From positions 1 to 26,515 of IMG/VR virus record IMGVR_UViG_3300005647_000021: a stretch of DNA of 26,515 nt; one strand, written 5' to 3'. The position numbers and the translations under genes were made by a program. Below, piece by piece: positions 10,807-25,386 of this stretch. The DNA comes from a virus. How positions within the stretch are numbered: the stretch's first letter is position 1; every line of letters starts with the position of its first letter. The notes beneath the pieces are model-generated. The model was not told where the DNA came from and searched no databases. It saw nothing but the letters and a program-made list of their open reading frames with translations.

Positions 10807-11316
10807 TTAATGAGCTACCCCTGTATCCATATTTTCTAATATGTCATTCATATCTTCTTCATCCATATCATTAGATATAGAAGCGGCAACATCTTTTCTA
10901 AGCGAATTAAGATGTTTTCTTTTTCTAGCTTTTGGCTCTGCATGATTTACCAAATATTCAAACACTTCATCACTATCATTAGCATCTATTAAATCAGATG
11001 GTACTTGAATTCGAAATTTCTTTCTATATTCAAATTGATCTTGTATATCATTGATTTCTACTATTGAACCATCTTGCAATTGAATGTCAGTACCGACTGG
11101 TGCAGTTATAAATCCTGTGATGATATACACATCTTCGACAGGATCAATAGTATTTAATATTAGTTCGTCACCATCACTTAATATAGAAGTATGAAATAAA
11201 AATTCATTGACGCCTATTATTATAGGCGAAATCAATTCAAAGATTTCTTGTGTGTAATCATCATACTGTTTTTCACGAATGTCAATTTTATGATTAATTT
11301 TATTTGTTATTGTCAT
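10807..11316 (-). CDS. Hypothetical acidic protein upstream of uvsY
   Basis: A 169-residue protein. An N-terminal half with beta-strand character (IIIGVNEFLFHTSILSDGDE; VYIITGFITAPVGTDIQLQD) leads into a charged C-terminal half with a basic patch (KARKRKHLNSLRKD) and a very acidic end (MDEEDMNDILENMD). No TM segment or signal peptide is visible. It overlaps the 3' nucleotidyltransferase fragment by 17 bp, abuts uvsY, and has a GGA ribosome binding site 6 nt before the ATG. A recombination accessory role fits the position only. I do not recognise the family. Confidence 0.62.
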   Translation of the reverse strand: MTITNKINHKIDIREKQYDDYTQEIFELISPIIIGVNEFLFHTSILSDGDELILNTIDPVEDVYIITGFITAPVGTDIQLQDGSIVEINDIQDQFEYRKKFRIQVPSDLIDANDSDEVFEYLVNHAEPKARKRKHLNSLRKDVAASISNDMDEEDMNDILENMDTGVAH

Positions 11317-12010
11317 TTGAATTCCAAATTAAATCTTGTACTTCCATTATAGTCTGTGCCGCTAATTTAACATTAGGTTTGCGGGACAGTTCGGTATTAT
11401 CATACGCTTCTTTTATTTTAATGTCCATAGTATCTGCATATGCTAATATTTCGTCGTATGTGAGAGAGCCATTGCGAATCTCTAACAGCTCTGAAGCATC
11501 ATCTCTGAACACGTTTACTTGTCCTGTAGTAAGTGTTTCGTAGCCCATTCTGAGAAGTCTGACGAGATGCATAGCATTTTTTGTATCATAAAAAAATTCA
11601 GCTTCTAACTTAGCTCGTTTTTCATTTCTATTTTTTTTCCATAACCAATATTTGTCATAGAAATTTTTATCATCTGTCCATTTAGATCTATTTAATTTAA
11701 CAATCGCCTTTGGTTGTCCCAGTGATTCTCTTGAGCCATCAAAATTATCTTTAATCGAACCATCTGGATTAAATAATTTAAATTTATTCCAGTCGTACAT
11801 TCCATACAAATCATTTCCATAACTTATAAATCTATGATTATTGCTGTATGTCATTATATCAAATGTATTCGGCATAACTTTATTATCCGCGAACCACTGA
11901 ATTAAATGAATATAACACTCTTGCCTCGGAATACATAATTTCAAACAATCATTAATATGATTATCTGGAGCATCATACTTGTTTAGCAGATTCTCTAATG
12001 ATATCTCCAT
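11300..12010 (-). CDS. C-terminal part of a split RlaP-like nucleotidyltransferase
   Basis: A 236-residue protein that reads as the C-terminal substrate-binding half of an RlaP-type predicted nucleotidyltransferase. The diagnostic stretch near residues 145-185 is NAMHLVRLLRMGYETLTTGQ followed by VNVFRDDASELLEIRNGSL, as in intact family members. The N-terminal catalytic half is encoded separately at 12985-13524, with a homing endonuclease gene between them. I chose ATG 12010 (MEISLENLLNKYD) rather than 12067 because the extra residues lie in the endonuclease 3' end and look non-native. A GAGAGG about 13 nt upstream is a distant ribosome binding site. It overlaps the endonuclease ORF by 38 bp, so coupling is likely. 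Whether the halves reassemble into one enzyme is unknown. Confidence 0.72.
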   Translation of the reverse strand: MEISLENLLNKYDAPDNHINDCLKLCIPRQECYIHLIQWFADNKVMPNTFDIMTYSNNHRFISYGNDLYGMYDWNKFKLFNPDGSIKDNFDGSRESLGQPKAIVKLNRSKWTDDKNFYDKYWLWKKNRNEKRAKLEAEFFYDTKNAMHLVRLLRMGYETLTTGQVNVFRDDASELLEIRNGSLTYDEILAYADTMDIKIKEAYDNTELSRKPNVKLAAQTIMEVQDLIWNSNDNNK

Positions 12011-12995
12011 AATTTTTTTGCAACCTCTCAAATTGTTTTTTGTTAATTTTAAGAACTCCACTATCAATATAATTATTAATAGTGGAATTTAAATCAATTG
12101 AAAAAATAAAATCACTTATTTCAGAATATCCAATTAATTTACATATTAAATTACTATGATGTTCAATTAATGCATTAAATTTTAACTGAACTATTTTATT
12201 TTTTTGTAATTTTTCAGGTTTTATTTCATAAACTGTATTCAACGATGGTATATAGAAATCTGGCGTATATGCTCTAATATCATTTTTATCATCGGAATAT
12301 TTAACTCTAAAATCTGACGATTCTGCGGAAATTACTATAATATTTGTTGAATACCAATACATGAGATACAACAATTCTAAACTACTTCTAAAATGTATTT
12401 CGTTGAATTTTCCATTTATTCCAAAGCCTGTGCCGAGGGGAGGTGATTTTCCATATGATGGATTGTCTTTACCCTTCAATCCGGTGCCGGGTCTTTTAAC
12501 TCCAAACATTGGATTATCAGTTCCATACAGCCCAGCGTTCCATGATTTTTTACCGTATTGTGGATTTTTTTTGCCTAATTTACCATCACTAAGTTTTTTC
12601 CTACATTCGATAGAACGTTTAGAACCAGTATTTCTTTTTATAATTTTATCTATGCGTTCTTTTGACAATTTAACCCCTGTAAATTGTTTTTTAGTTCTCT
12701 GTCTTGCTTCTAATGAAGTAGTTGCACAAACCTGAGAACAATATTTTGAATATTTTGGATTTATCCACAACGAATTTTTCCCACACCAACATTTTGGTGT
12801 AGTGTGAACATTTTTTGTGATATGCCATATTCTTTGGCTTATAGTCGCATCACTATTTAAATAATGCGTATGTTTTATAATAGATGAAATTAAATCCCCA
12901 CATTTAGAGTTTAAGTTTAAAAGGGGTGCATTTAATTTTCCATCTTTTCGAATTAATTCATTGTTGATTCTAAATAACAACTCATCATTTTTCAT
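11973..12995 (-). CDS. Putative homing endonuclease (PD-(D/E)xK type with NUMOD3-like repeats)
   Basis: A 340-residue basic protein. An N-terminal zinc-finger-like cluster (Cys69, Cys71, Cys86, Cys90) is followed by NUMOD3-type DNA-binding repeats (about 140-185: GKKNPQYGKK, GTDNPMFGVK, GKDNPSYGKS). The C-terminal nuclease domain has FRSSLE (202-207), PDFYIP with Asp246, and YEIKP with Glu257 and Lys259, which is a PD-(D/E)xK arrangement. Such enzymes cut an allele lacking the insertion and spread by repair. The ORF starts 11 bp before the stop of the 5' nucleotidyltransferase half and ends inside the 3' half. The interval is almost entirely coding, which leaves no room for a group I intron core. 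Its local AT content looks higher than its neighbours'. Confidence 0.82.
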   Translation of the reverse strand: MKNDELLFRINNELIRKDGKLNAPLLNLNSKCGDLISSIIKHTHYLNSDATISQRIWHITKNVHTTPKCWCGKNSLWINPKYSKYCSQVCATTSLEARQRTKKQFTGVKLSKERIDKIIKRNTGSKRSIECRKKLSDGKLGKKNPQYGKKSWNAGLYGTDNPMFGVKRPGTGLKGKDNPSYGKSPPLGTGFGINGKFNEIHFRSSLELLYLMYWYSTNIIVISAESSDFRVKYSDDKNDIRAYTPDFYIPSLNTVYEIKPEKLQKNKIVQLKFNALIEHHSNLICKLIGYSEISDFIFSIDLNSTINNYIDSGVLKINKKQFERLQKNYGDIIRESAKQV

Positions 12996-13524
12996 TTTTT
13001 ATATAGTCCAATACTTGATCACCACAATTGTTTTTTATCCATGTATGATCAATATCACCCACTTTCAAAGCTTTTGTTAAAACGGTTGATAATGAATGTA
13101 ATTGATCGGTGTAGTTTACATGTTTTTTTGATGATTTAATTCTTTTTAATTGAGAATCTGCATATCCTGCTGTTGTGAAAGCTATTTTGGATGATAAAAA
13201 ATTGTCCCTACGTGATCTTAATAGCTCATATGCTTCAGTTGATTTTATAATGTCCTGATTGCGTACCCATAACATCTGTACAATATTTGGATTTTGATCC
13301 AGCAATAAGCGCATAAAGTGATTAAGTTCAAAATACTTAGTATCTTCATCTTCAACAACCTCTATTTCCCTAACAGGAAAAAATGGTGTTCTAACATTAA
13401 TTGGATTTCCACAAAAAATTCCGCGCATATCAAGATCTGAAGATGGTATGACTGTTCCATATGCATGACTACCCTCAAGCACTGTACAAATTAAATTAGT
13501 TTCTAATAAATCGTTAGTATTCAT
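12985..13524 (-). CDS. N-terminal catalytic part of a split RlaP-like nucleotidyltransferase
   Basis: A 179-residue protein with the nucleotidyltransferase signature LEGSHAYGTVIPSSDLDMRG: Gly18-Ser19 and the metal-binding pair Asp30 and Asp32. The next block (NVRTPFFPVREIEVVED; YFELNHFMRLLLDQNPNIVQ) follows RlaP-type predicted nucleotidyltransferases. Intact members continue into a C-terminal domain, which here is a separate ORF at 11300-12010. This ORF stops with TGA inside the start of the homing endonuclease gene (11-bp overlap). It begins 6 bp after the lipoprotein gene. The family is associated with adding nucleotides to RNA or other acceptors, but its substrate is unsettled. The split by an endonuclease is the notable feature. 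Confidence 0.78.
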   Translation of the reverse strand: MNTNDLLETNLICTVLEGSHAYGTVIPSSDLDMRGIFCGNPINVRTPFFPVREIEVVEDEDTKYFELNHFMRLLLDQNPNIVQMLWVRNQDIIKSTEAYELLRSRRDNFLSSKIAFTTAGYADSQLKRIKSSKKHVNYTDQLHSLSTVLTKALKVGDIDHTWIKNNCGDQVLDYIKNEK

Positions 13525-13530
13525 ATTATT

Positions 13531-14457
13531 CTATTCAGGTAAATATTCACAAACCGTTTCATCACCATTACTGTCTAAGAAATGGGCATCGCGTTCGCCA
13601 GTTTCCTCTTTAGCGGCTATAAAGAATTCCTGTGCTTCTGATTGTGTTTCAAAATCACCACAATTTTTATCTACAAAAACTGGTTCTGGTTCTTGTTCTT
13701 CAACTACAGGTTCTTCAACTACAGGTTCTTCAACTACAGGTTCTTCAACTACAGGTTCTTCAACTACAGGTTCTTCTATAACTGGTTCTTCGATCATTGA
13801 CTCATCTAAGTTAACATAATTATTTGTTGCGTTGTGCCATTCACATGCGTATTTAAATGAATCATAAAATCCATCTAGATCGAATACATATTGAATTGAC
13901 ACACCATCTTCCATCAATAAAATTCTAAAAATACGATTAGTGAGCATTTGCGGGAGCATATATAATGTATCAGATTCTCTGATTGTATTAGAATATATTC
14001 CCCCTGATTCTTCTACACTAAAAGTAGTGAAGTCAGCTTCACTATTAGCTATCATACTTTCTGTTGCATACATGAGCAACAAATCATCTGGAGTATCATA
14101 GTAAGTAATAATATTAATTTTCGGGGATTGTTCGTTTATTGCACATTCCACTTTCAAACTTGCTTCTATTCCCAATACTTCATTTACACGAGAATTAAAT
14201 GTTCGTGTTGTTCCTTTATAAATTCCAGTACGTAAATCAGGGCCAGCCATAGCATCAATCCAATTATTAAAACGAGCACGAGGAATAAGCTCTCGTTGCT
14301 CACCAATTGGAGCTACTGGAAACGTGGGTATTGATGTTTGGTCAATAGTTGAATCGTCTACGGCTCCAGCCTGTACGCCTGTAGAATCAACCCAATTACA
14401 TCCAGATAATGTCAGGGCCATCAAAAATGTCAATGTTATTGATTTCATTGAAAACAT
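13531..14457 (-). CDS. Predicted lipoprotein with repeat linker and C-terminal Excalibur domain
   Basis: A 308-residue exported protein. The N-terminus is a lipoprotein signal: a hydrophobic stretch ending in the lipobox LSGC with Cys20, so it should be membrane-anchored by lipid. Residues about 25-215 are an unassigned domain with two cysteines. Residues about 223-257 are a Pro-Val-Val-Glu-Glu repeat encoded by 15-bp tandem repeats. The last 45 residues match the Excalibur calcium-binding motif: a CGDFETQSEAQEFF helix, then the Asp-x-Asn-x-Asp loop and CEYLP end. Met4 is an alternative start. The linker resembles one in the neighbouring oxidase. Lipoproteins in phages often alter the host surface or block superinfection; no specific role is shown here. 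Confidence 0.8.
   Translation of the reverse strand: MFSMKSITLTFLMALTLSGCNWVDSTGVQAGAVDDSTIDQTSIPTFPVAPIGEQRELIPRARFNNWIDAMAGPDLRTGIYKGTTRTFNSRVNEVLGIEASLKVECAINEQSPKINIITYYDTPDDLLLMYATESMIANSEADFTTFSVEESGGIYSNTIRESDTLYMLPQMLTNRIFRILLMEDGVSIQYVFDLDGFYDSFKYACEWHNATNNYVNLDESMIEEPVIEEPVVEEPVVEEPVVEEPVVEEPVVEEQEPEPVFVDKNCGDFETQSEAQEFFIAAKEETGERDAHFLDSNGDETVCEYLPE
13696..13770. repeat. 15-bp tandem repeat, five exact copies, coding for a PVVEE linker
   Basis: Five perfect tandem copies of TTCTTCAACTACAGG (plus-strand sense) lie inside the lipoprotein gene, followed by a degenerate copy at 13771-13785. Each adds five residues (Pro-Val-Val-Glu-Glu in cyclic order). The unit length is a multiple of three, so copy-number change lengthens or shortens the linker without a frameshift. 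DNA-level identity suggests recent expansion by slippage. Confidence 0.95.
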
Positions 14458-14484
14458 ACTACTCTATTGTGTAAATAATTCGAT

Positions 14485-14493
14485 ATTATATCA
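14485..14493 (-). promoter_or_regulatory. Candidate extended -10 promoter for the lipoprotein gene
   Basis: The minus strand reads TGA-TATAAT (14493-14485), an extended -10 element. The predicted start near 14478 gives a leader of about 20 nt to ATG 14457. No convincing -35 is seen. The box lies in a near-palindrome (GATATTATATC on the plus strand). Unlike several other promoters here, no strong ribosome-site-covering dyad was found. Confidence 0.45.
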
Positions 14494-14530
14494 TATCTAC
14501 TATTTTTCTAGTAATTAATCTGTGAAATAC

Positions 14531-14566
14531 CTCCTGTTTTTAGATAAATAATGTACAAGGGAGAAT
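14531..14566 (+). promoter_or_regulatory. Candidate late-type promoter and ribosome binding site for the GH16 gene
   Basis: GATAAATA (14543-14550) differs from the T4 late box TATAAATA at one position. It lies 20 bp before the ATG of the GH16 gene, which has a strong AAGGGAG ribosome binding site (14558-14564). A CTCCT at 14531-14535, just upstream of the box, could pair with GGGAG of that site (one G-U) in read-through RNA. Late expression of GH16 is inferred from this single-mismatch box. Confidence 0.45.
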
Positions 14567-14569
14567 ATT

Positions 14570-16087
14570 ATGGCTAAACCAAATCTTAAAGATTCAAAAG
14601 CTAATTTCAAATTAATTTGGAATAGCGAATTTAATGAAAATGAACTAAACCAAGACAAGTGGCGATTTGAAAAAATCCTACCTGATCATAACGACAATCG
14701 TGCTCAAATGTCTCAACATGTAACCAATACTTTTGGTTTCGATACTGATGGCAATAAAAAAGATGGCGCATACCCTTTGGGTAAACGTCATGCTATGTGG
14801 TACGACAAGCACTTAGATAAAACACTAAAGATTCGCGATGGTTCTTTGGTTATGGGTGGATACAAATCTGATGAAGATGATCCAACGATCAAAGATTCAC
14901 ATCACCCATATGAACATCCACGTAATGGGAAAACTGCGGATTTTAGAAAGAAAATTTATACATCGTGGATTGATACTTACGCGATGACATGGGAAGATGG
15001 AGCCGTTCGACCTTCTTCTGAACATTCACCAAACTTTTATTTTCGATATGGCTTCGTAGAATTTGGAGTTAATTTTGAAAATGTACATACTGAGGGGTTT
15101 AGAATATCCGGTTGGTTACTACCTGCTGTTAATCCAAGCGATGAGAATAAATCACTTGTAGGTGGTACATACGATGATGACGATGGTAATGGTGTTGAAT
15201 TAGATGTATGGGAATATGAAAATACTCCAAGTTCAAGAAATCTTTTACTATGTAAAAACATTGGTGCTAATGCAAAGAAAATTCCACCAGTTGATTTAGG
15301 TCCATTTGGAATTGATATGACTAAGGGCGATCATACGATTGCTGTTCATTGGTCTACTGAAGGTACTCGATGGTATGTAGACGGTGTTTTAATTTGCGAA
15401 GATCTAGTTTGTAAAGTTGAAATCGCGATGGCTCTATATCTAACACGAGAAGGTAATTCTGGTGCAAACTCTGGTGGTGGTGTTACTGCCCAACCTCCGT
15501 TTATTCAGAACGATCCGGGTTTATATGCGTATAACTTAGGAACCGAATCAGCAGAAACAATTAATTCTGATGAAGCTCTTATTCATTATGTTCGCGTATG
15601 GCAAGATGAAGATCATGACGGTAATTGGATTGCTCCTAATTGGAGAAATGGTGAAGGTGTTGAAGCTATTGGCGATAAGCCTGTTGCTGCTACTCCATCT
15701 GCTACTCCAGTTACATCTAATGATGCTGAACCACTTGTGATGGAAGATACTGATTCTGAATTTGGATTGAAGATTAATGGAAATGTTTTAACATGGAATC
15801 AAACTCATGATGAAAACAAGTATGACATTAAATTTGATAAAAATGAATATAAAAAATCTGTTAAAGGAACTACTTTTACAATACCTGATTCTTATAAAGA
15901 AGGTACTTATTATGTAACTGCTACTCCATCTAGTAAGAGATTTATTGATTCTAATAAAGTCGAATATTCAAAATCTAATATTGTAGATGAACCAGTAGTA
16001 AATGAACCAACCACCGATACTGAATCGGCTGCTGTTATTATCGCTCAAATCACCAAACTATTGGCGAAGCTTCGCAAGCTGTCCTAA
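14570..16087 (+). CDS. GH16-family glycoside hydrolase with C-terminal Fn3-like domain
   Basis: A 505-residue protein. Residues 13-350 form a GH16 catalytic domain. Landmarks are FKLIWNSEFN at the start, FRYGFVEFGVNF (158-169), the catalytic motif Glu210-Leu-Asp212-Val-Trp-Glu215 (ExDxxE: nucleophile Glu210, acid/base Glu215), and HWSTEGTRWYVDGVLI (260-275). GH16 enzymes cleave beta-1,3/1,4 glucans or galactans such as laminarin, agar and carrageenan; the substrate here cannot be read off. Residues about 395-470 look like a small beta-sandwich (Fn3-like). A DEPVVNEP linker and a basic amphipathic helix end the protein. There is no signal peptide, so it would be virion-borne or released at lysis. 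Its last 30 bp overlap the convergent oxidase gene. Confidence 0.88.
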   Translation: MAKPNLKDSKANFKLIWNSEFNENELNQDKWRFEKILPDHNDNRAQMSQHVTNTFGFDTDGNKKDGAYPLGKRHAMWYDKHLDKTLKIRDGSLVMGGYKSDEDDPTIKDSHHPYEHPRNGKTADFRKKIYTSWIDTYAMTWEDGAVRPSSEHSPNFYFRYGFVEFGVNFENVHTEGFRISGWLLPAVNPSDENKSLVGGTYDDDDGNGVELDVWEYENTPSSRNLLLCKNIGANAKKIPPVDLGPFGIDMTKGDHTIAVHWSTEGTRWYVDGVLICEDLVCKVEIAMALYLTREGNSGANSGGGVTAQPPFIQNDPGLYAYNLGTESAETINSDEALIHYVRVWQDEDHDGNWIAPNWRNGEGVEAIGDKPVAATPSATPVTSNDAEPLVMEDTDSEFGLKINGNVLTWNQTHDENKYDIKFDKNEYKKSVKGTTFTIPDSYKEGTYYVTATPSSKRFIDSNKVEYSKSNIVDEPVVNEPTTDTESAAVIIAQITKLLAKLRKLS

Positions 16088-18784
16088 ACGGATCAGCAAA
16101 CTACCAAGTAGGGATATCAATATAAACATATTGATTGATCCTCTGAATAGAGCACCGTTGCCAGATTTGGTGGCGGTGTTTTCTTCTATATTCGGTTCTT
16201 CAACCACTGGAGTTTCCACTACAGGCACTTCAATATGCACTTCAACTACTGGAGTATTATCAACTACAGGATTGAAATCAGGATTTTTACGGGCTGGTGC
16301 CATATTGCTATCTGTAACAAATGTAGAACCAGTTGTTCTAAACACAACAGACTTTGGTGATGTGTTACCATCAAAATCAAATGCAGCTACTGCATATTCA
16401 TATGTCTGTCCAGCTTCAAGTTCAAATTGATTAAAACCTATACCAGCATCATTACGTCTGCCAATTTCCACACCATTTCTATAAATGATATAACCACTAA
16501 CACCTTTATCATCATAAGATCGGCCCCAAGTCAACGTACCTTCCGATGGTGATGTTTTATACATTCTTAGATCTACAGGTGTAGATGGAATCACTGGATT
16601 AAATACTGACGTAGGATCAATTATATAAGGTTGATCTGACGTTCTTATTTGCTGTGCATCAGTCAAAGTTGAACGTGAACCATCAGTTGCTATCGCAAGA
16701 ACTTGAAACGAATATGTTCTCATTGCCTGCAAATTATCAGCAACATAATAAGTATCATCTGATTTATTTACCAATCGACCATCCCTGAATATTTCATATT
16801 CTTTAGCACCATCTACACTGTTCCAGACAACTTCAAATCGACCGTCGCCTAATTTAGCTAAAGTTAGATTTTCTGGCTTAGCAATAAAATTAACTACTTG
16901 TGCATTGGTGCCAGTAGTAACATCAAATGATATTGAAAATTCAGTATTGGCTTTACCATTAACACCGATAAACCAACTAGTGTCATTCTGTGCTGATATA
17001 ACACACTGATGTTGATCATCAGTGATACTCGCACAAGAATTAAAACCGCTATTATTTGGATCAGTGGGCCACGAGCCATTCTTTACATGAATCGATGCAG
17101 CATTTAAGTTAGTATTAAAGTTAACAGTAAGTGTATGTTCATCATTACCTTTAATTTCGTAATACTCCCAATGATTAGGTCTAGCATTGTTAATCATTAC
17201 ATCACCAGTCTCAACCAATGGGCCACCAAAATTAACTATTGCAGCTTCAGATGGAACACCATTCTTAACAGCGAAAACCATGTAGTGGCCGGGGGGTGCT
17301 AAGAATCTAGACTTGGGTGCAGCAATAGTTGCAACGCCATTAGCCTGACTAATAATCTCACCTTTAACCAATCGTTGATCTTGGCTTTGCGAATGTGTAA
17401 CCGAACTTAATTTAATAAAATTAACTTCTGTAATATCAGTAGATACATTCATATTAAAATAAGTATTGAAGTTTGCTTTTTCTGGTGCTCCAGAAATCAC
17501 AGGACGTTCACCTTTAAACAAATATGGTGGTGAGAATATCTCAGCATTTTGTTCTTCATGATCGAAGGTAAAACAAGGAACACAATATCCACTACCAGCT
17601 AATAACACTCTGGCATCAGGCAACAACAAAGCAACAGAATGATATTGGCGATCAACTTTCATATCATTCATAATTGTCCAATCACCAGTATTTGGATTCC
17701 AAATTTCTGGAGTTACTACACCAGCATTAGGATCATATAAATCTTCACCAGACCAGTTACCACCAGTTGCAAGTACAGAACCATCAGCTAATATTGTTAG
17801 GTTGTGTTGGCGACGACCAAAATTCATTGGTGATGTTTCAGTTACACTACGATTCTTCGTATCAACAATTACAGATGATTTAATAGATGATCCACCACCA
17901 GATATTAGTACTTTATCAGTATCGTATGTTGCGTAACTACCATAACCACGATATGAAGCAAGCTCACCTTCAAGCTCATTAATATCGCGTCTAGGACCAT
18001 TTATCCACTTATCTTTTTCAAAGGTATCATCAGTGTATAAACTATCAACTCTATTGTGTGGCCCTACATAAGCTACAGAACCATCTGACACTACTGATAG
18101 CCATGCATAATCACCAGATAAAACTAATGGTGAATCCAATTCGCCGTTGAATTCACGATATTGTTTATTGTGTTCTAAAATTTCACCGTATGGTGTTGGT
18201 GTGTAAGTTCCACCCAATGTTAAAATTTCACCATTGGGTAGTGAAACAGATGATGCATACCATCGAGCGGCATTTAGGTTATCTGTTGTTGACCATTGAT
18301 TAGTATAAGGATCATAAATGTTACTATTTGATGTTGGGCCGTTTTTTCCACTTACACCAGAATCACCACCAACAAATATAATTCGTCCATCAGTTAAATG
18401 AACACTGCCAGCACAGAACAAATCACCAGTACCTTCTGGATTATATGTTTGCATGTGTTGATTCGTTTTGGGATTCCATACAGTCACACGAGTTTGATTT
18501 CGCTGTGAATCATGAAAGTTTGTTGGTGAACCATCAAATTCAGTATCAAAATCATCTGGTGTTGCATCCCATACAAAAACGTTTCCTGTTGGGAGTACAG
18601 TTGCATGAACAGCCAATACAGGCCAATCATAAACGTCAGACCATTCACCACCTACGATGGCATCTGATTTTTCTCTAGTTATATACTCTGGTATTTCAGC
18701 CAGATTATGTTCTTCCGCTCCATGCGCGAAACAAACACTAGAAATTGCTGAAAGTATCAACACACTAAATATTTTTTTATACAT
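16058..18784 (-). CDS. Secreted AA5-type copper-radical oxidase (galactose/glyoxal oxidase-like) with PPC and Fn3 domains
   Basis: A 908-residue protein starting at ATG 18784. A clean signal peptide ends near CFA (residue 20), which is why I reject the in-frame ATG 18817. Residues 45-430 are a Kelch beta-propeller and 430-520 the galactose-oxidase C-terminal domain (DUF1929-like). All five ligands expected from galactose oxidase align: Cys124 (LFCAG) and Tyr176 (ARWYASS) for the thioether cofactor, Tyr381-His382 (QYHS) and His464 (SVTHS). The galactose-oxidase Trp290 position is Tyr194. Then come a bacterial PPC-like domain (525-628), two Fn3 domains (635-716, 735-818), a Val/Pro/Glu linker (843-868) and a C-terminal TM with a basic end (884-908). 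The family oxidises alcohols or aldehydes and releases hydrogen peroxide. The substrate is unknown. Confidence 0.9.
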   Translation of the reverse strand: MYKKIFSVLILSAISSVCFAHGAEEHNLAEIPEYITREKSDAIVGGEWSDVYDWPVLAVHATVLPTGNVFVWDATPDDFDTEFDGSPTNFHDSQRNQTRVTVWNPKTNQHMQTYNPEGTGDLFCAGSVHLTDGRIIFVGGDSGVSGKNGPTSNSNIYDPYTNQWSTTDNLNAARWYASSVSLPNGEILTLGGTYTPTPYGEILEHNKQYREFNGELDSPLVLSGDYAWLSVVSDGSVAYVGPHNRVDSLYTDDTFEKDKWINGPRRDINELEGELASYRGYGSYATYDTDKVLISGGGSSIKSSVIVDTKNRSVTETSPMNFGRRQHNLTILADGSVLATGGNWSGEDLYDPNAGVVTPEIWNPNTGDWTIMNDMKVDRQYHSVALLLPDARVLLAGSGYCVPCFTFDHEEQNAEIFSPPYLFKGERPVISGAPEKANFNTYFNMNVSTDITEVNFIKLSSVTHSQSQDQRLVKGEIISQANGVATIAAPKSRFLAPPGHYMVFAVKNGVPSEAAIVNFGGPLVETGDVMINNARPNHWEYYEIKGNDEHTLTVNFNTNLNAASIHVKNGSWPTDPNNSGFNSCASITDDQHQCVISAQNDTSWFIGVNGKANTEFSISFDVTTGTNAQVVNFIAKPENLTLAKLGDGRFEVVWNSVDGAKEYEIFRDGRLVNKSDDTYYVADNLQAMRTYSFQVLAIATDGSRSTLTDAQQIRTSDQPYIIDPTSVFNPVIPSTPVDLRMYKTSPSEGTLTWGRSYDDKGVSGYIIYRNGVEIGRRNDAGIGFNQFELEAGQTYEYAVAAFDFDGNTSPKSVVFRTTGSTFVTDSNMAPARKNPDFNPVVDNTPVVEVHIEVPVVETPVVEEPNIEENTATKSGNGALFRGSINMFILISLLGSLLIRLGQLAKLRQ
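16064..16075. repeat. 12-bp palindrome in the convergent gene overlap
   Basis: GCGAAGCTTCGC is a perfect palindrome within the 30-bp 3' overlap of the GH16 and oxidase genes. Because it is in frame on both strands, it encodes Ala-Lys-Leu-Arg at the C-terminus of both proteins (LAKLRKLS and LAKLRQ). No U-tract follows, so a terminator role is doubtful. Confidence 0.9.
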
Positions 18785-18832
18785 TTTTGATAAATTCCCA
18801 TTGTTATCATTTTTCAATACTGTTAGTTTACT

Positions 18833-18869
18833 ACAAAATTAATTATAGTGAGTTTACTATTAATTTTGT
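18833..18869 (-). promoter_or_regulatory. 11-bp inverted repeat around a candidate -10 box for the oxidase gene
   Basis: ACAAAATTAAT (18833-18843) and ATTAATTTTGT (18859-18869) form a perfect 11-bp inverted repeat with a 15-bp spacer in the divergent oxidase-topoisomerase intergenic region. A minus-strand TATAAT (18847-18842) falls at one arm, with no clear -35. The arrangement resembles an operator over a promoter. The oxidase ATG is 58 bp downstream. A direct repeat GTTTACTA occurs at 18826-18833 and 18852-18859. Confidence 0.6.
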
Positions 18870-18985
18870 TGTGTGACACCGTTCATAACTTCAATATTAC
18901 TGCATCGCAACGTATGATATATGATGGTCTGATTTCTCTTTCACCAGTGCATTGTATCATAATCAAATTAAATAACATTAATTAT

Positions 18986-19033
18986 TCATGGTATAATGAC
19001 CACACAAACAAATCAAAATAAATAAAACCATGA
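18986..19033 (+). promoter_or_regulatory. Extended -10 promoter and start-codon dyad of the topoisomerase gene
   Basis: TGG-TATAAT (18989-18997) is an extended -10 element matching the one at 8803-8811. No strong -35 is seen. A perfect 7-bp inverted repeat, TCATGGT (18986-18992) and ACCATGA (19027-19033), has its 5' arm on the promoter and its 3' arm across the ATG. The gene lacks a recognisable Shine-Dalgarno sequence. The rest of the intergenic stretch 18870-18985 shows nothing I can assign. Confidence 0.6.
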
Positions 19034-20901
19034 CAAAGAAGAACACTGCCTATAGCGAAGCTGATATCCAAGTACTCAGTGAAATCGAACATGTACACAA
19101 AAGAAGCTCTGTATATCTTGGTAATACGAGAGAGACAAATTATCAGGTTCCTATTTTTGGAGAAGATTTCTCCATTGAAGAAATAACATTTGTGCCAGCG
19201 GTGAGTAAACTATTTTCTGAGGTAGTTGATAACTCCAATGATGAATTGATTCAATCAAAACCTCGCAAGCCACTAATTAAAATTAATTCAGATGTTGCTA
19301 ATGCAACATTCTCTGTAGAAGATAATGGACGTGGTGTTCCAATTGGTAAACACAAGACTGGAGTTCCCACACCACAAGTTGTTTTCACCACACTACGCTC
19401 TGGGCGAAACTTTAAAGATGATAAAGAAGCTGGTGTAATTGGAACTAATGGTATGGGTGTATCTTTATCGGCGATATGCTCTGAAGAATTTAAAGTAGTG
19501 ATACATCGTGATAATAAACGATATGAACAAGTATTTACAGATGCTACTCGAAAGATCGGCAAACCTAAAGTCACTAGAAAGACAACTAAAAATACTGGTA
19601 CGTTAGTTGAATTTAAATTAAAGGATGATATTTTTTCTAGTGTTATTTTACCAGAACGAATAATTAGAAATCGTGCTATCGAAATGGCTGCTACAAACCC
19701 CGGCCTTACTGTCGATTACAATGGAACCAAATACAATTATAAGCGTGGATTTGATCAACTATTAAATCAACACTTTGGTGATTATTATAGATTTGGTAAT
19801 GATGAATTAGAATTCTTTGTTGTATTCGATACTCACAATAGACCTGAAGAACAAATATTTTCTTGGGTTAATAGCTCTATGCTATACGATGGTGGTTCTT
19901 GTAATACTCAGTTTACCAATGCTTTTTTCGATAAAGTAATGAGTCACCTTGAACGTGAAGCTAAAAGAAAGAAAGTAACAATTAATAGAAACGATGTTAG
20001 ATCTGGATTGTTATTGTTAGGTAATTTAAAAGTCAGTGATCCTCAATATGATTCACAGGCAAAAACAAAAATGACTGGACCATCACTACGAAAAGACTTT
20101 GATGATATTGTTGAAGCTGGATGGAAAGCGTTTGTTAGAAAATATAAAGACTGGTTAACTAGCGTTGTTGATCAGGCAATTAAACGAAGTAATGCAGATG
20201 CAACCAAAAAGGCTGTGGCTGGTAGTAAAAAGAAGCTTGGTCCTATTGATGGTTTCATGGAAGCTAACTCTAAGAAGCGCGATACTTGTCGATTGCTAGT
20301 AACAGAAGGTAACTCAGCTAAAGCTAATATTGTACAATCGAGAAATCCTCCTACGGATGCTGCATATCCACTAAAAGGTAAGATTAACAACGTCTATGGT
20401 ATCTCTGTAGCGGAGCTTTTGAAGATGGGTAAGGTATCTGATCTTATATCTATAATCGGACTTGTGCCGGGTAAGAGAGCGATGCGATCTGAATTAAGAT
20501 ATGGTCAAGTATGTTTTGCAACGGATGCTGACTTGGATGGTGATCATATAACCACTTTATTAGTTAATTTATTCTTTCAGTTTTGGCCTGAGTTGTTCGA
20601 TCCAAAATATCCACCATTCTTTTATAGAATGATTGCTCCTAATGTGGTTGTATCAAAAGGAAAGAAGCGGATTCATATTCCAAATCTAAGTGAGTTTGAA
20701 AAGCAAAAGAAAAAATACTCTGGTTGGGATGTTGAATATATGAAAGGTCTTGGTGGTATGAGTAAGACTGATTGGGATATGATCCTGTCAGGAGAGACTG
20801 ATACATTTATTCCAATAATCAACGAAGGTGATTTCTCAGAATCGTTAGAATTATTATTTGGTCCAGATCCAGATTTAAGAAAGGAATGGTTACGTAACTA
20901 A
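19030..20901 (+). CDS. 39: Type II DNA topoisomerase large subunit (gp39/gp60 fused form)
   Basis: A 623-residue GyrB-like protein. The GHKL ATPase domain has FSEVVDNSNDELIQ (catalytic Glu64, Asn68), VEDNGRGVPIG and IGTNGMGVSLSAICS. The TOPRIM domain has LLVTEGNSAKANI and FATDADLDGDHI, with the metal-binding Glu and Asp residues. T4 divides this subunit into gp39 and gp60; here both parts are in one ORF of roughly the combined length. With gp52, not seen in this window, it would pass DNA strands ahead of the fork. It is one of only two plus-strand genes, has its own extended -10 promoter, and ends at a hairpin terminator facing uvsX. The start is fixed by the conserved N-terminus rather than by a ribosome binding site, which is absent. 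Confidence 0.93.
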   Translation: MTKKNTAYSEADIQVLSEIEHVHKRSSVYLGNTRETNYQVPIFGEDFSIEEITFVPAVSKLFSEVVDNSNDELIQSKPRKPLIKINSDVANATFSVEDNGRGVPIGKHKTGVPTPQVVFTTLRSGRNFKDDKEAGVIGTNGMGVSLSAICSEEFKVVIHRDNKRYEQVFTDATRKIGKPKVTRKTTKNTGTLVEFKLKDDIFSSVILPERIIRNRAIEMAATNPGLTVDYNGTKYNYKRGFDQLLNQHFGDYYRFGNDELEFFVVFDTHNRPEEQIFSWVNSSMLYDGGSCNTQFTNAFFDKVMSHLEREAKRKKVTINRNDVRSGLLLLGNLKVSDPQYDSQAKTKMTGPSLRKDFDDIVEAGWKAFVRKYKDWLTSVVDQAIKRSNADATKKAVAGSKKKLGPIDGFMEANSKKRDTCRLLVTEGNSAKANIVQSRNPPTDAAYPLKGKINNVYGISVAELLKMGKVSDLISIIGLVPGKRAMRSELRYGQVCFATDADLDGDHITTLLVNLFFQFWPELFDPKYPPFFYRMIAPNVVVSKGKKRIHIPNLSEFEKQKKKYSGWDVEYMKGLGGMSKTDWDMILSGETDTFIPIINEGDFSESLELLFGPDPDLRKEWLRN

Positions 20902-20908
20902 TCATTAA

Positions 20909-20932
20909 TTAGCCCACAATTAAGTGGGCTAA
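20909..20932. terminator. Bidirectional hairpin terminator between topoisomerase and uvsX
   Basis: TTAGCCCAC (20909-20917) and GTGGGCTAA (20924-20932) form a perfect 9-bp GC-rich stem with a 6-nt AATTAA loop, 7 bp after the topoisomerase stop and 11 bp before the end of convergent uvsX. It is one of the most GC-rich hairpins in this AT-rich sequence. The flanking T-tracts are modest on both strands. Confidence 0.8.
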
Positions 20933-20943
20933 CATCTTATCGT

Positions 20944-22032
20944 TTATTCGCCTACAGCTTTGTCTTGTCGAAGTTTCTTAGAAGAAAATTTATTTTCTAC
21001 AACTTCTTCTTCTTCATCTTCACCAATAATAGCTTCTAGACTAATGCCAGATTTTTCTTCACACTGTTTTAATACTTCTTCTTGAACAGTGTGAAAGTTT
21101 TTTCGTTGAAATTTTTCGCCACTAGATTCTAATGTATACCACGCACTGACTTTTTTAACTACACCGATATCTTCTGCGATATCCAATAAACCATTATACG
21201 GATCCATACCTGCTTCGTATGGTACTTCAATCGTTACTGATTGAAATGGTCTAGTAAATCTAGTCTTATATCCATAACACTTCATCCGAATACCAGTAAT
21301 TTCTTTGGTTTCTTTATTCTTTAGTGTTAACTTGGATACTAATACAATTTGCGAACAAGCATATTTAATTGCATCAGGAACAATATATAAACCTTCACCA
21401 TTGAGTAGATCTTGATTTTTATAAACATGGGATGTAACAACCATTGTTATATTGGTATTTTTTATATTGTTAGTGAAAGATGATAGCATTGCTTTCAACT
21501 GTTTGTTGCGTTGACCTTGATCACCTTTATTTTCTCCCTTCTTAAATTGTTCTTGCTCAGTATCTGTCATAAGCATACTCAAGCTGTCAATAAAAATGGA
21601 AATCTTTGGTGCATCTGGTCCATCGGCTGGACTGTATTCGTTTTTATAGTCAGTGACTATAGACGAAACGGCCTTTTTACATTCGCCAATGGTATTAACT
21701 GATATTGGAAGATAATTTTCTTCATCTGTATCAACACCCAGCTTTTCAACGAAGCCATCATCCAATGCATTCTCTGTATCAACAGCGATTACTATACCGC
21801 CTGCTAATTGAGTCTCGCGCATTAGATTAACTACGTTGAACGATTTGCCTGAACCAGCAGGCCCACAGAAACACGTAACACGCGCCTGTGGGATGCCATT
21901 TAAGAAAGAGCCAGAAATAACTTTATTCTGAGCATAATTACCAGTGGAAACCCAATAAGCTGGTGGGCTGGATTTTCCATTAGTAATATCTTTCTTATCC
22001 AGATTCTTTTTTTGCTTAGAAAGAAAGCTCAT
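20944..22032 (-). CDS. uvsX: UvsX recombinase (RecA-like)
   Basis: A 362-residue RecA-family recombinase. Walker A is GPAGSGKS (57-64). The catalytic Glu is in AVDTENAL (Glu87). Walker B is ISIFIDSLS (Asp149). The MVVTSHVYKN segment resembles the region after the RecA L1 loop. A Glu-rich stretch near 340 (EDEEEEVVE) precedes a basic C-terminus. UvsX forms the presynaptic filament for strand exchange and recombination-dependent replication, with UvsY and gp32, both encoded here. It starts 2 bp after the gp32 stop with an AAGG 10 nt upstream, so the two form an operon. T4 UvsX is 391 aa. No defect was seen. Confidence 0.94.
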   Translation of the reverse strand: MSFLSKQKKNLDKKDITNGKSSPPAYWVSTGNYAQNKVISGSFLNGIPQARVTCFCGPAGSGKSFNVVNLMRETQLAGGIVIAVDTENALDDGFVEKLGVDTDEENYLPISVNTIGECKKAVSSIVTDYKNEYSPADGPDAPKISIFIDSLSMLMTDTEQEQFKKGENKGDQGQRNKQLKAMLSSFTNNIKNTNITMVVTSHVYKNQDLLNGEGLYIVPDAIKYACSQIVLVSKLTLKNKETKEITGIRMKCYGYKTRFTRPFQSVTIEVPYEAGMDPYNGLLDIAEDIGVVKKVSAWYTLESSGEKFQRKNFHTVQEEVLKQCEEKSGISLEAIIGEDEEEEVVENKFSSKKLRQDKAVGE

Positions 22033-23766: not shown

Positions 23767-24297
23767 TTAATTTTTTGGAACATCAAAAGGACCATATATC
23801 GAAAATATTAAATCACCAGATTTAATATGTTGAGTTCCAACTTCATCGTCATCTCGTTCAATTAAATAATCACCACATACGTGCTGTGAGACTACTCGAA
23901 CTTCAGTAACTGTCTTACCTTGTAGTTCTGGTGTTTCACTCCAATCCCATTGCCAGAACTTCATATCTGTTCTAAAGAATGATCGTGGATCAGATGAAAC
24001 CTTTGGCACTCGTACAAAATCAAATTTTGCAAGATATAATCGGCTGTCGTCTGTTTTTACGTATCCGACTGGACTATTAAAAACAAAACCACAATCTCGT
24101 ATTTTTATGCCTGATGCTGAGTATGTTACTGAAGTGTCGGTTTGTTCGACAACTTTAACTTTAACACTTATAATAACAGGAAACTTACTAACCATATATA
24201 CAGCTAACCACATAATCAATAACATTGCGATTAATGCTTTCCATATATTTTTATTAAACCCAGCTTTTTTTGCTGCGGTCGCATGGGTCTTAGGCAT
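23767..24297 (-). CDS. Exported single-TM protein, paralogue 1 of 3
   Basis: A 176-residue protein. A short Lys-rich N-terminus (AAKKAGFNKNIWK) precedes one TM helix (about 20-44). The remaining 130 residues should lie in the periplasm by the positive-inside rule. Conserved features shared with the two upstream neighbours are a cysteine pair (Cys69 in KIRDC, Cys141 in SQHVC), the motif W115-x-WDWSE, and a GPF ending. The paired cysteines suggest a disulfide. It is the last gene of a four-gene run after the holin-like gene, 6 bp after its neighbour, with AGGA before the ATG. I do not recognise the family. A lysis-timing (antiholin-like) or superinfection-exclusion role would fit the topology and location. 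Confidence 0.75.
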   Translation of the reverse strand: MPKTHATAAKKAGFNKNIWKALIAMLLIMWLAVYMVSKFPVIISVKVKVVEQTDTSVTYSASGIKIRDCGFVFNSPVGYVKTDDSRLYLAKFDFVRVPKVSSDPRSFFRTDMKFWQWDWSETPELQGKTVTEVRVVSQHVCGDYLIERDDDEVGTQHIKSGDLIFSIYGPFDVPKN

Positions 24298-24303
24298 GTT
24301 TAA

Positions 24304-24849
24304 TTATTCCTGATTTACTTTAAATGGACCAATAACAGAGAATCGTAAATCACCAGTGATTGAATGACCACCACGTTCATTGTCTTCGGCAACGATGGCA
24401 TCCGTACCACATACATTTTGCGACAATAATAATACTTCATATGCAGTTTCATCTTTCATTTCTGGTATTTCACTCCAATCCCAACGCCATACACCAAAGT
24501 CTGTTCTGAATGGTGATCTTTCTCTTGAACGATTAACTGATATATCTGGATATCCAAAGTCTGTAATTTTTCGTATACCAAACTCAGTTCTTACGAATCC
24601 AATTGGACTACTTGGAACATAAGCACAATCTCGAATTTTAATTCCAGACACAGCAAGAGAAACTGATGTATCAGTTAATTCAACAACTTCGGCCTTTTGC
24701 CAAACAATAATAGGCAATTTTTTTACAACAGCTATTGCTATCCACATGATAAAGAAAGCAGCTATTATTGACTTCCATATGTTTTTACCAAATCCTGCGT
24801 TATTTGCAGCATCTGCATGTGTATTTGTATTTGATTTTGACTCTGACAT
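24304..24849 (-). CDS. Exported single-TM protein, paralogue 2 of 3
   Basis: A 181-residue protein with the same plan as its neighbours: a polar N-terminus (AANNAGFGKNIWKS), a TM helix at about 28-50, then a periplasmic domain. The shared cores are VVELTDTSVSLAVSGIKIRD-Cys, SPIGFVRTEFGIR, WRWDWSEIPE, LLSQNVC and GDLRFSVIGPFKV. It is most similar to paralogue 1 over the SGIKIRDC region. It starts with a good AGGAG site that overlaps the end of the preceding gene. Divergence between copies while the cysteines and WDWSE are kept suggests selection on the fold rather than a recent duplication. Confidence 0.75.
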   Translation of the reverse strand: MSESKSNTNTHADAANNAGFGKNIWKSIIAAFFIMWIAIAVVKKLPIIVWQKAEVVELTDTSVSLAVSGIKIRDCAYVPSSPIGFVRTEFGIRKITDFGYPDISVNRSRERSPFRTDFGVWRWDWSEIPEMKDETAYEVLLLSQNVCGTDAIVAEDNERGGHSITGDLRFSVIGPFKVNQE

Positions 24850-24852
24850 ATT

Positions 24853-25386
24853 TTACTCCTGTGATAATTTAAATGGACCTACTTCTGTCCATCGTAAATC
24901 ACCAGTAATATTAATTTTTGGATTATTAGTATCTAAATCTACATATTCTACGCCGCCATCACAAGAGTGTTGAACGAACATAGTAACTTCATCATATGAT
25001 TCGTTAAATTTATTTTCACTCCAATCCCAGCGCCACCAACCCGAATTTGCTCGTTTCAAAAAAGATCGTGGGTGTGTATATTCTAAATCAGTTTGTTCTT
25101 CAAACTTAAATGCTGTTATAGGTTCCCACCTTCCATTTTTAATTCGAGCATAGCCACGTTCGCTACCAGCTACATATTGACAATTAAGAATTTTGACAAA
25201 TGACATACTCAATAGTGCGTAATCATCAGTTACCTCGATAATATCTTCCTGTGGTAAAATTACCACTGGCAACCAATATTGAGCGATTGATGCAATCCAC
25301 ATAATCAAACCAAATATTATTATTGATTTCCAAATATTTTTGTTAAAACCTGCCTTTTTAGCAGCTTCAGCGTGTGTGTGTGTCAT
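24853..25386 (-). CDS. Exported single-TM protein, paralogue 3 of 3
   Basis: A 177-residue protein and the first of the three tandem paralogues. It starts 2 bp after the holin-like gene with a strong AAGGAG site. The N-terminus AAKKAGFNKNIWKSI is nearly identical to paralogue 1. The TM helix lies at about 20-45. The periplasmic part is the most diverged copy (KILNC, WWRWDWSE, VQHSC) but keeps both cysteines and the Trp motif. It ends with GDLRWTEVGPFK, like paralogue 2. No catalytic signature is visible. Its function is unassigned; see paralogue 1 for possible roles. Confidence 0.75.
   Translation of the reverse strand: MTHTHAEAAKKAGFNKNIWKSIIIFGLIMWIASIAQYWLPVVILPQEDIIEVTDDYALLSMSFVKILNCQYVAGSERGYARIKNGRWEPITAFKFEEQTDLEYTHPRSFLKRANSGWWRWDWSENKFNESYDEVTMFVQHSCDGGVEYVDLDTNNPKINITGDLRWTEVGPFKLSQE

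Follow-up and report, generated by a model that had tools for sequence, protein, structure and literature searches.

Phage depolymerases and GH16 genes carried by phages as metabolic genes are already known. Viral GH16 laminarinases are reported from kelp-associated phages, and the commonest predicted hosts in that setting include Granulosicoccus (PMC11126160), a bacterium dominant on kelp (PMC9238374). Possible phage precedents for an AA5 copper-radical oxidase are a protein of Pseudomonas phage D6 annotated as "galactose oxidase" (PMC11139720) and a single galactose-oxidase entry listed in a table for the Lake Baikal viral fraction (PMC9611531). Here, we analysed a viral locus where genes for an AA5 oxidase, a GH16 glycosidase and a lipoprotein lie side by side among replication genes, and which very probably represents an accessory island coding for surface proteins of host type.

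Layout of the locus and its junction in related phages

The window, by which the whole analysed stretch of 26,515 nucleotides is meant, is identical over its 26.5-kb length to part of a 43.3-kb IMG/VR record (IMGVR_UViG_3300009073_000022), which runs further left and contains there, from reading of open reading frames, rIIA-like and rIIB-like genes. The window itself encodes gp32, UvsX, UvsW, clamp loader and the large subunit of topoisomerase II, and its nearest UvsX relatives belong to Xanthomonas phage XacN1, Stenotrophomonas phage RAS14 and the CBB/GAP32 jumbo phages; it is a fragment of a T4-related, probably jumbo, phage. The island (13525..20943) occupies 7.4 kb between the N-terminal part of a nucleotidyltransferase gene on the left (12985..13524, minus strand; phrog_388) and the gene of the RecA-like UvsX on the right (20944..22032, minus strand). 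Besides the three genes in question it includes the topoisomerase gene (19030..20901, plus strand), whose product is 67% identical to L091 and 49-53% to those of other phages. In contig L205 this gene is also located close to uvsX, on the strand matching that of the window. Relatives of the topoisomerase, tried as a synteny test, have essentially nothing but topoisomerase in common with the window, and the cassette is missing from them; no group I intron was matched by Rfam in the split nucleotidyltransferase gene.

The gene coordinates given in the initial annotation proved correct, placing the lipoprotein gene at 13531-14457 (minus strand), the GH16 gene at 14570-16087 (plus strand) and the AA5 gene at 16058-18784 (minus strand, ATG at 18784). 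The lipoprotein and GH16 genes are divergent, while those of GH16 and AA5 converge with an overlap of 30 bp. With strands -,+,- the genes are neither co-oriented nor served by a common promoter, so that of the cassette proposed at the outset a single island at a variable junction stands and an operon does not.

The variability of the junction was assessed with 79 UvsX relatives from IMG/VR, 62 of which (some being near-duplicates) have both uvsX and the nucleotidyltransferase gene and keep the order gp32-uvsX-NTase-g152-UvsW onward, collinear with the window. The gap between uvsX and the nucleotidyltransferase gene spans 48-2689 bp in these contigs versus 7.4 kb in the window: it is closed to 48-196 bp in 40 contigs and measures 309-2689 bp in the other 22, where homing endonucleases, ferredoxin-like and unknown genes are found. 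AA5, GH16 or lipoprotein is encoded by none of the 79 contigs (tblastn, E 1e-3), the 62 junction contigs included. The island was seen in one phage only, represented by two records identical over the window that both possibly derive from one assembly. The best reading of these sequence comparisons is that the junction behind uvsX is an insertion-prone spot, at which the phage would have gathered three surface-protein genes of Granulosicoccaceae-type bacteria.

The AA5 oxidase and its sorting-like tail

The AA5 gene (16058..18784, minus strand) codes for 908 amino acids arranged as signal peptide, AA5 core, PPC-like region, two fn3 domains, linker and C-terminal tail. The catalytic core including the early-set domain (17231..18649, minus strand) matches PF09118 at 6e-20 and Glyoxal_oxid_N at 1.5e-10, its best solved relative is galactose oxidase 9g8h (1e-48), and residues C79, Y131, Y336, H337 and H419 in core numbering, forming the Cys-Tyr cofactor and the Tyr/His/His copper ligands, are invariant among 12 sequences. 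These data bear out the assignment made originally, and by sequence the membership of the phage protein in the AA5 family is certain. The second-sphere residue is Tyr (GGTYT), as in aryl-alcohol oxidase 6ryv, and W290 of galactose 6-oxidase is absent. Since the Trp290/Arg330 pair is described as the key indicator of galactose activity (PMC11267884), a galactan substrate appears less likely than the initial annotation assumed. In a tree of 64 rows the phage protein joins two gammaproteobacterial sequences, L071 and L072, with 100/100 support, far from the AA5-like proteins of other phage contigs. Of 48 genomes from the order containing Granulosicoccaceae (the order of G002, a MAG with Granulosicoccaceae in its title), 30 have homologues at E 1e-60, and the best match in this order is full length. 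PHROG 16216 was rejected as a phage AA5 family, as it is better matched by a kelch protein of Myxococcus phage Mx1 that has no copper-site motifs.

Downstream of the core, the two-fn3 region (16331..16879, minus strand) gives a Pfam match of 4.9e-6 for its first domain, and both domains align with those of bacterial L272; it is followed by the linker NPVVDNTPVVEVHIEVPVVETPVVEEP (16178..16270, minus strand) and by the tail (16061..16165, minus strand), in which SGNGALFRG precedes a hydrophobic helix and R/K/R. The hallmarks of GlyGly-CTERM are a glycine-containing motif without Cys, a hydrophobic helix and a basic end (PMC3237569), and by hydropathy SGNGALFRG-INMFILISLLGSLLI-R/K/R conforms to this pattern. 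The homologues L071, L272 and L278 end in clear Gly/Ser, helix and Arg tails. NCBIfam models of GlyGly-CTERM gave no match to the phage tail at E 0.1, but they likewise left homologues with clear tails unmatched, and their miss on the phage tail thus carries no information. In Vibrio cholerae, GlyGly-CTERM proteins reach the surface via rhombosortase and T2SS, as described in work on VesB (PMC6219818). By resemblance and homology, the AA5 tail may be sorted in the same fashion.

The GH16 enzyme, the lipoprotein and the link to one bacterial order

The GH16 gene (14570..16087, plus strand) encodes 505 amino acids. Its Pfam score of 18.1-20.3 bits lies under the gathering cut-off of 22, but the identity proposed earlier is upheld by profile-profile comparison (hhalign E 1e-4) and by homologues in the Granulosicoccaceae-containing order (E 1e-38 to 1e-47), with which it shares an invariant ExDxxE triad located in the motif ELDVWE (E210, D212, E215; 15197..15214, plus strand). 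All six aligned GH16 members match PF00722 (8e-11 at best), and the phage protein is confirmed, as far as sequence can tell, as a divergent GH16 with intact catalytic triad. The nearest solved relative of its profile is the endo-1,3-beta-glucanase 2vy0 (E 2e-5); single-sequence fold prediction gave pLDDT 32. Within the G002 order, 16 of the 48 genomes contained homologues (E 0.01), against 0 of 274 when gammaproteobacteria were sampled more broadly (E 0.001).

The lipoprotein gene (13531..14457, minus strand) codes for 308 amino acids beginning with a lipobox, continuing with a middle domain without known relative and ending with an Excalibur-like C-terminus (13546..13668, minus strand). The attribution of this end to Excalibur is tentative: the motif DSNGDETVCE is present (the domain motif being of DxDxDGxxCE type), but the Pfam score is weak (13.8 bits at a cut-off of 22), with phrog_27159 matching at 6e-4; the domain was also matched in L297. 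The anticipated export of two products and retention of the third was reproduced by signal predictions, namely a lipobox in the lipoprotein, a Sec signal in AA5 and no signal peptide in GH16.

The leader LSGC-NWVDSTGVQ (14371..14409, minus strand) is shared with lipoproteins L303, L305, L306, L307 and L309. Distinct lipoproteins of the Granulosicoccaceae-containing order, and of a second one, have the first residues of the phage protein right after their lipobox. Searching C-x-W-V-D-S-T-G as a degenerate DNA pattern in 369 gammaproteobacterial genomes retrieved five: G154 and G363 from the order of G002, and G060, G199 and G304 from the order of G199. Neither this pattern outside the two orders nor the reversed control pattern anywhere gave a match in this set. 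As the sample contained four genomes of the first order and three of the second, the signature is present in 5 of 7 versus 0 of 362 others, with a hypergeometric P of about 4e-10, a value somewhat optimistic because the order of G199 was noticed post hoc via the AA5 relative L072.

All three genes were initially described as carrying similar Pro/Val/Glu linkers. The similarity is strong for the lipoprotein and AA5, with six and four PVVE-like units respectively, but reduced in GH16 to one short DEPVVNEP (15986..16009, plus strand). In other proteins tested from the window such units are almost absent, appearing as scattered single matches. In the lipoprotein the linker is encoded by a 15-bp tandem repeat of PVVEE (13695..13791, minus strand; TRF 6.5 copies, 95% matches). 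The DNA of the other linkers resembles it no more than expected from synonymous codons (simulated P = 0.64 and 0.65), by which linker homology at the DNA level is rejected and domain shuffling inside the phage is left unsupported. The bacterial GH16 homologues carry similar PPVEEP linkers, suggesting that this linker style is a feature of extracellular proteins of the lineage, that is of the probable host secretome. L272, the closest full-length AA5, has no PVVEE linker. Of the shared origin once proposed, there remains one of sorts, through relatives and signatures in one bacterial order, while origin or shuffling based on linkers is not supported by the DNA simulation.

Each of the three proteins is tied, by sequence relatives or signatures, to the Granulosicoccaceae-containing order, and a marine gammaproteobacterium of this order is most likely the host of the phage; given that gene capture may cross host borders, such assignment is likely but unproven. 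The lipobox signature together with the enzyme homologues offers a sequence-based lead to Granulosicoccaceae-type bacteria as hosts of an otherwise anonymous phage.

Possible function, alternatives and comparison with known systems

The composition of the island suggests that the phage may remodel host surface sugars during and after infection. In the course of infection AA5 would enter the Sec system, its C-terminal tail would be handled by the host in a GlyGly-CTERM/rhombosortase-like way, and the enzyme would be displayed on the host surface, oxidising a primary alcohol of a glycan, either surface-bound or extracellular, or else an aryl alcohol, with production of H2O2. The lipoprotein would sit in the envelope through its lipid anchor, exposing the Excalibur end. 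GH16, devoid of the signal peptide, fn3 and linker that precede the domain in bacterial homologues, presumably stays in the cytoplasm and would cut a beta-glucan-type matrix once released by lysis or when carried on virions. The host glycan coat would consequently be altered, re-adsorption by the same or rival phages reduced and progeny freed from the biofilm matrix. Whether host-type surface enzymes encoded by the phage modify the host glycan coat in this complete form is, in our judgement, evenly balanced; a division of labour in which a copper-radical oxidase, displayed through the sorting route of the host, keeps out competing phages by oxidising the surface glycan, and a lysis-released endo-glycanase opens the matrix to progeny, is considered unlikely.

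Several other explanations account for parts of these observations. The genes may be auxiliary metabolic genes for foraging, through which the infected host uses algal or dissolved polysaccharide such as laminarin-like glucans and so feeds phage replication; the viral GH16 laminarinases reported from kelp-associated phages, with Granulosicoccus among the commonest predicted hosts there (PMC11126160), and the proximity of the GH16 profile to an endo-1,3-beta-glucanase (2vy0) speak for it. Yet the phage GH16 without the signal peptide of its bacterial homologues could act outside the cell before lysis only if leaked or packaged, and the aldehyde and H2O2 produced by AA5 are no food; foraging is considered improbable. 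We are equally doubtful that GH16 is a tail-associated virion depolymerase for entry, with AA5 and the lipoprotein as unrelated neighbouring morons. The missing signal peptide, the C-terminal fn3-like region with its linker, the late-promoter-like GATAAATA 27 bp upstream of the GH16 gene and the location of AA5-like proteins of other phages in virion gene modules are compatible with such a role, but the gene resides among replication genes away from tail genes, and the promoter match is 7/8, of a kind common in the AT-rich DNA here.

Independent acquisition at a hotspot of genes having no joint function is a possibility of rather low probability. Opposite orientations, the unshared promoter, the absence of the set from the other phages compared, and the presence of unrelated genes, homing endonucleases among them, at this junction in relatives agree with hitchhiking cargo. 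Against it, the connection with the cell surface and with a single bacterial order holds for all three genes and not just for one of them. That assembly fused phage and bacterial DNA into a chimera is highly improbable. The sequence does come from one sample, with two records identical over the window, but codon usage of the three genes (GC3 0.205-0.210) and their GC equal those of the phage and differ from the 51-55% GC of the two bacterial homologues measured, implying that acquisition is not recent or that the donor genome is similar; moreover, phage genes enclose the island on both sides, and topoisomerase near uvsX recurs in L205. The best reading is an accessory island whose genes encode surface proteins of host type.

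The claim that no phage with AA5, GH16 and lipoprotein together has been described holds within the records and literature searched. Apart from the same phage, fn3-only matches and distant virion-type AA5s, INPHARED and IMG/VR yielded no close AA5 or GH16 relatives, the IMG/VR scans being based on few peptide patterns that may miss divergent ones. A phage-encoded secreted AA5 with bacterial-type sorting tail is likewise absent from the 50,697 phage records and the literature searched. If the inferred function is true, phages would possess an oxidative route to alter host surface glycans, and if the oxidase is displayed at the surface, this would be a use of AA5 chemistry by phages without earlier description.

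Among described proteins, those of the Granulosicoccaceae-containing order come closest. Bacterial GH16 enzymes (L290, L291, L293-L296) resemble the phage one in ExDxxE, in 33-36% identity and in PPVEEP-type linkers, but are built as signal peptide-fn3-(PPVEEP)n-GH16, whereas in the phage form the signal peptide is missing, as are fn3 and linker on the N-terminal side, and a C-terminal fn3-like region with the DEPVVNEP linker is present. Viral GH16 laminarinases are also phage-borne and come from marine or kelp settings; in the accessible part of PMC11126160 they appear as single metabolic genes without AA5 or lipoprotein partner, unlike the island. As for AA5, bacterial L272 and L071 share the core and copper ligands with the phage enzyme at 43-52% identity, and L272 is homologous over its full length (43%), having in common signal peptide, PPC-like region, two fn3 domains and a tail of Gly/Ser, helix and basic Arg end; in the phage protein the Pro/Val/Glu linker is longer and the glycine motif of the tail weaker. 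GlxA shares the core and copper ligands but is a distant family match. AA5-like proteins of podovirus-like contigs (L067, L069 and L070) exceed the Pfam cut-off for GO-like_E_set and retain all copper ligands, but at 23-26% identity they are devoid of bacterial-type accessory domains and form a separate branch of the tree, and their genes adjoin those of capsid and tail type in virion modules, unlike the phage AA5 gene described here.

The uvsX-nucleotidyltransferase junction and the split nucleotidyltransferase gene

Among the UvsX-relative phage contigs from IMG/VR (L182-L259), the junction between uvsX and the nucleotidyltransferase gene is an insertion hotspot of the window's phage group, where homing endonucleases and accessory genes are inserted. 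The nucleotidyltransferase gene of the window (phrog_388; 11300-13524) is itself interrupted by a NUMOD3/TnsA-like ORF (11973-12995), a relative of which also lies in the same gene in contigs L184 and L222, whereas in other relatives the gene is intact. Rfam search of the split gene returned no intron match.

Polymerase-like ORFs and tandem membrane-protein genes

Short ORFs resembling pieces of DnaE-type DNA polymerase are located in the window's phage at 7199-7786, with matches to phrog_11127 and phrog_405, and in sequence L016 (L016:6910-7497); its DNA polymerase may be split over several genes. In this phage such ORFs co-occur with T4-type clamp loader and gp32. Three tandem paralogous genes (23767-25386) encode single-pass membrane proteins of ~177 aa with 37-49% identity to each other.

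Lipobox signature and AA5-like proteins of other phages

The C-x-W-V-D-S-T-G lipobox signature is found in lipoproteins L303, L305-L307, and L309-L316 and in the window's phage; its bacterial carriers belong to two gammaproteobacterial orders, and it could be used as a host marker.

In three podovirus-like contigs, AA5-like genes (L067:7955-10744, L069:8891-10963, and L070:8684-10735) are surrounded by portal, capsid, and tail-type genes, and their products possess complete copper ligands. These proteins are possibly virion-borne copper-radical oxidases, representing a possible phage use of the AA5 fold separate from that of the window.
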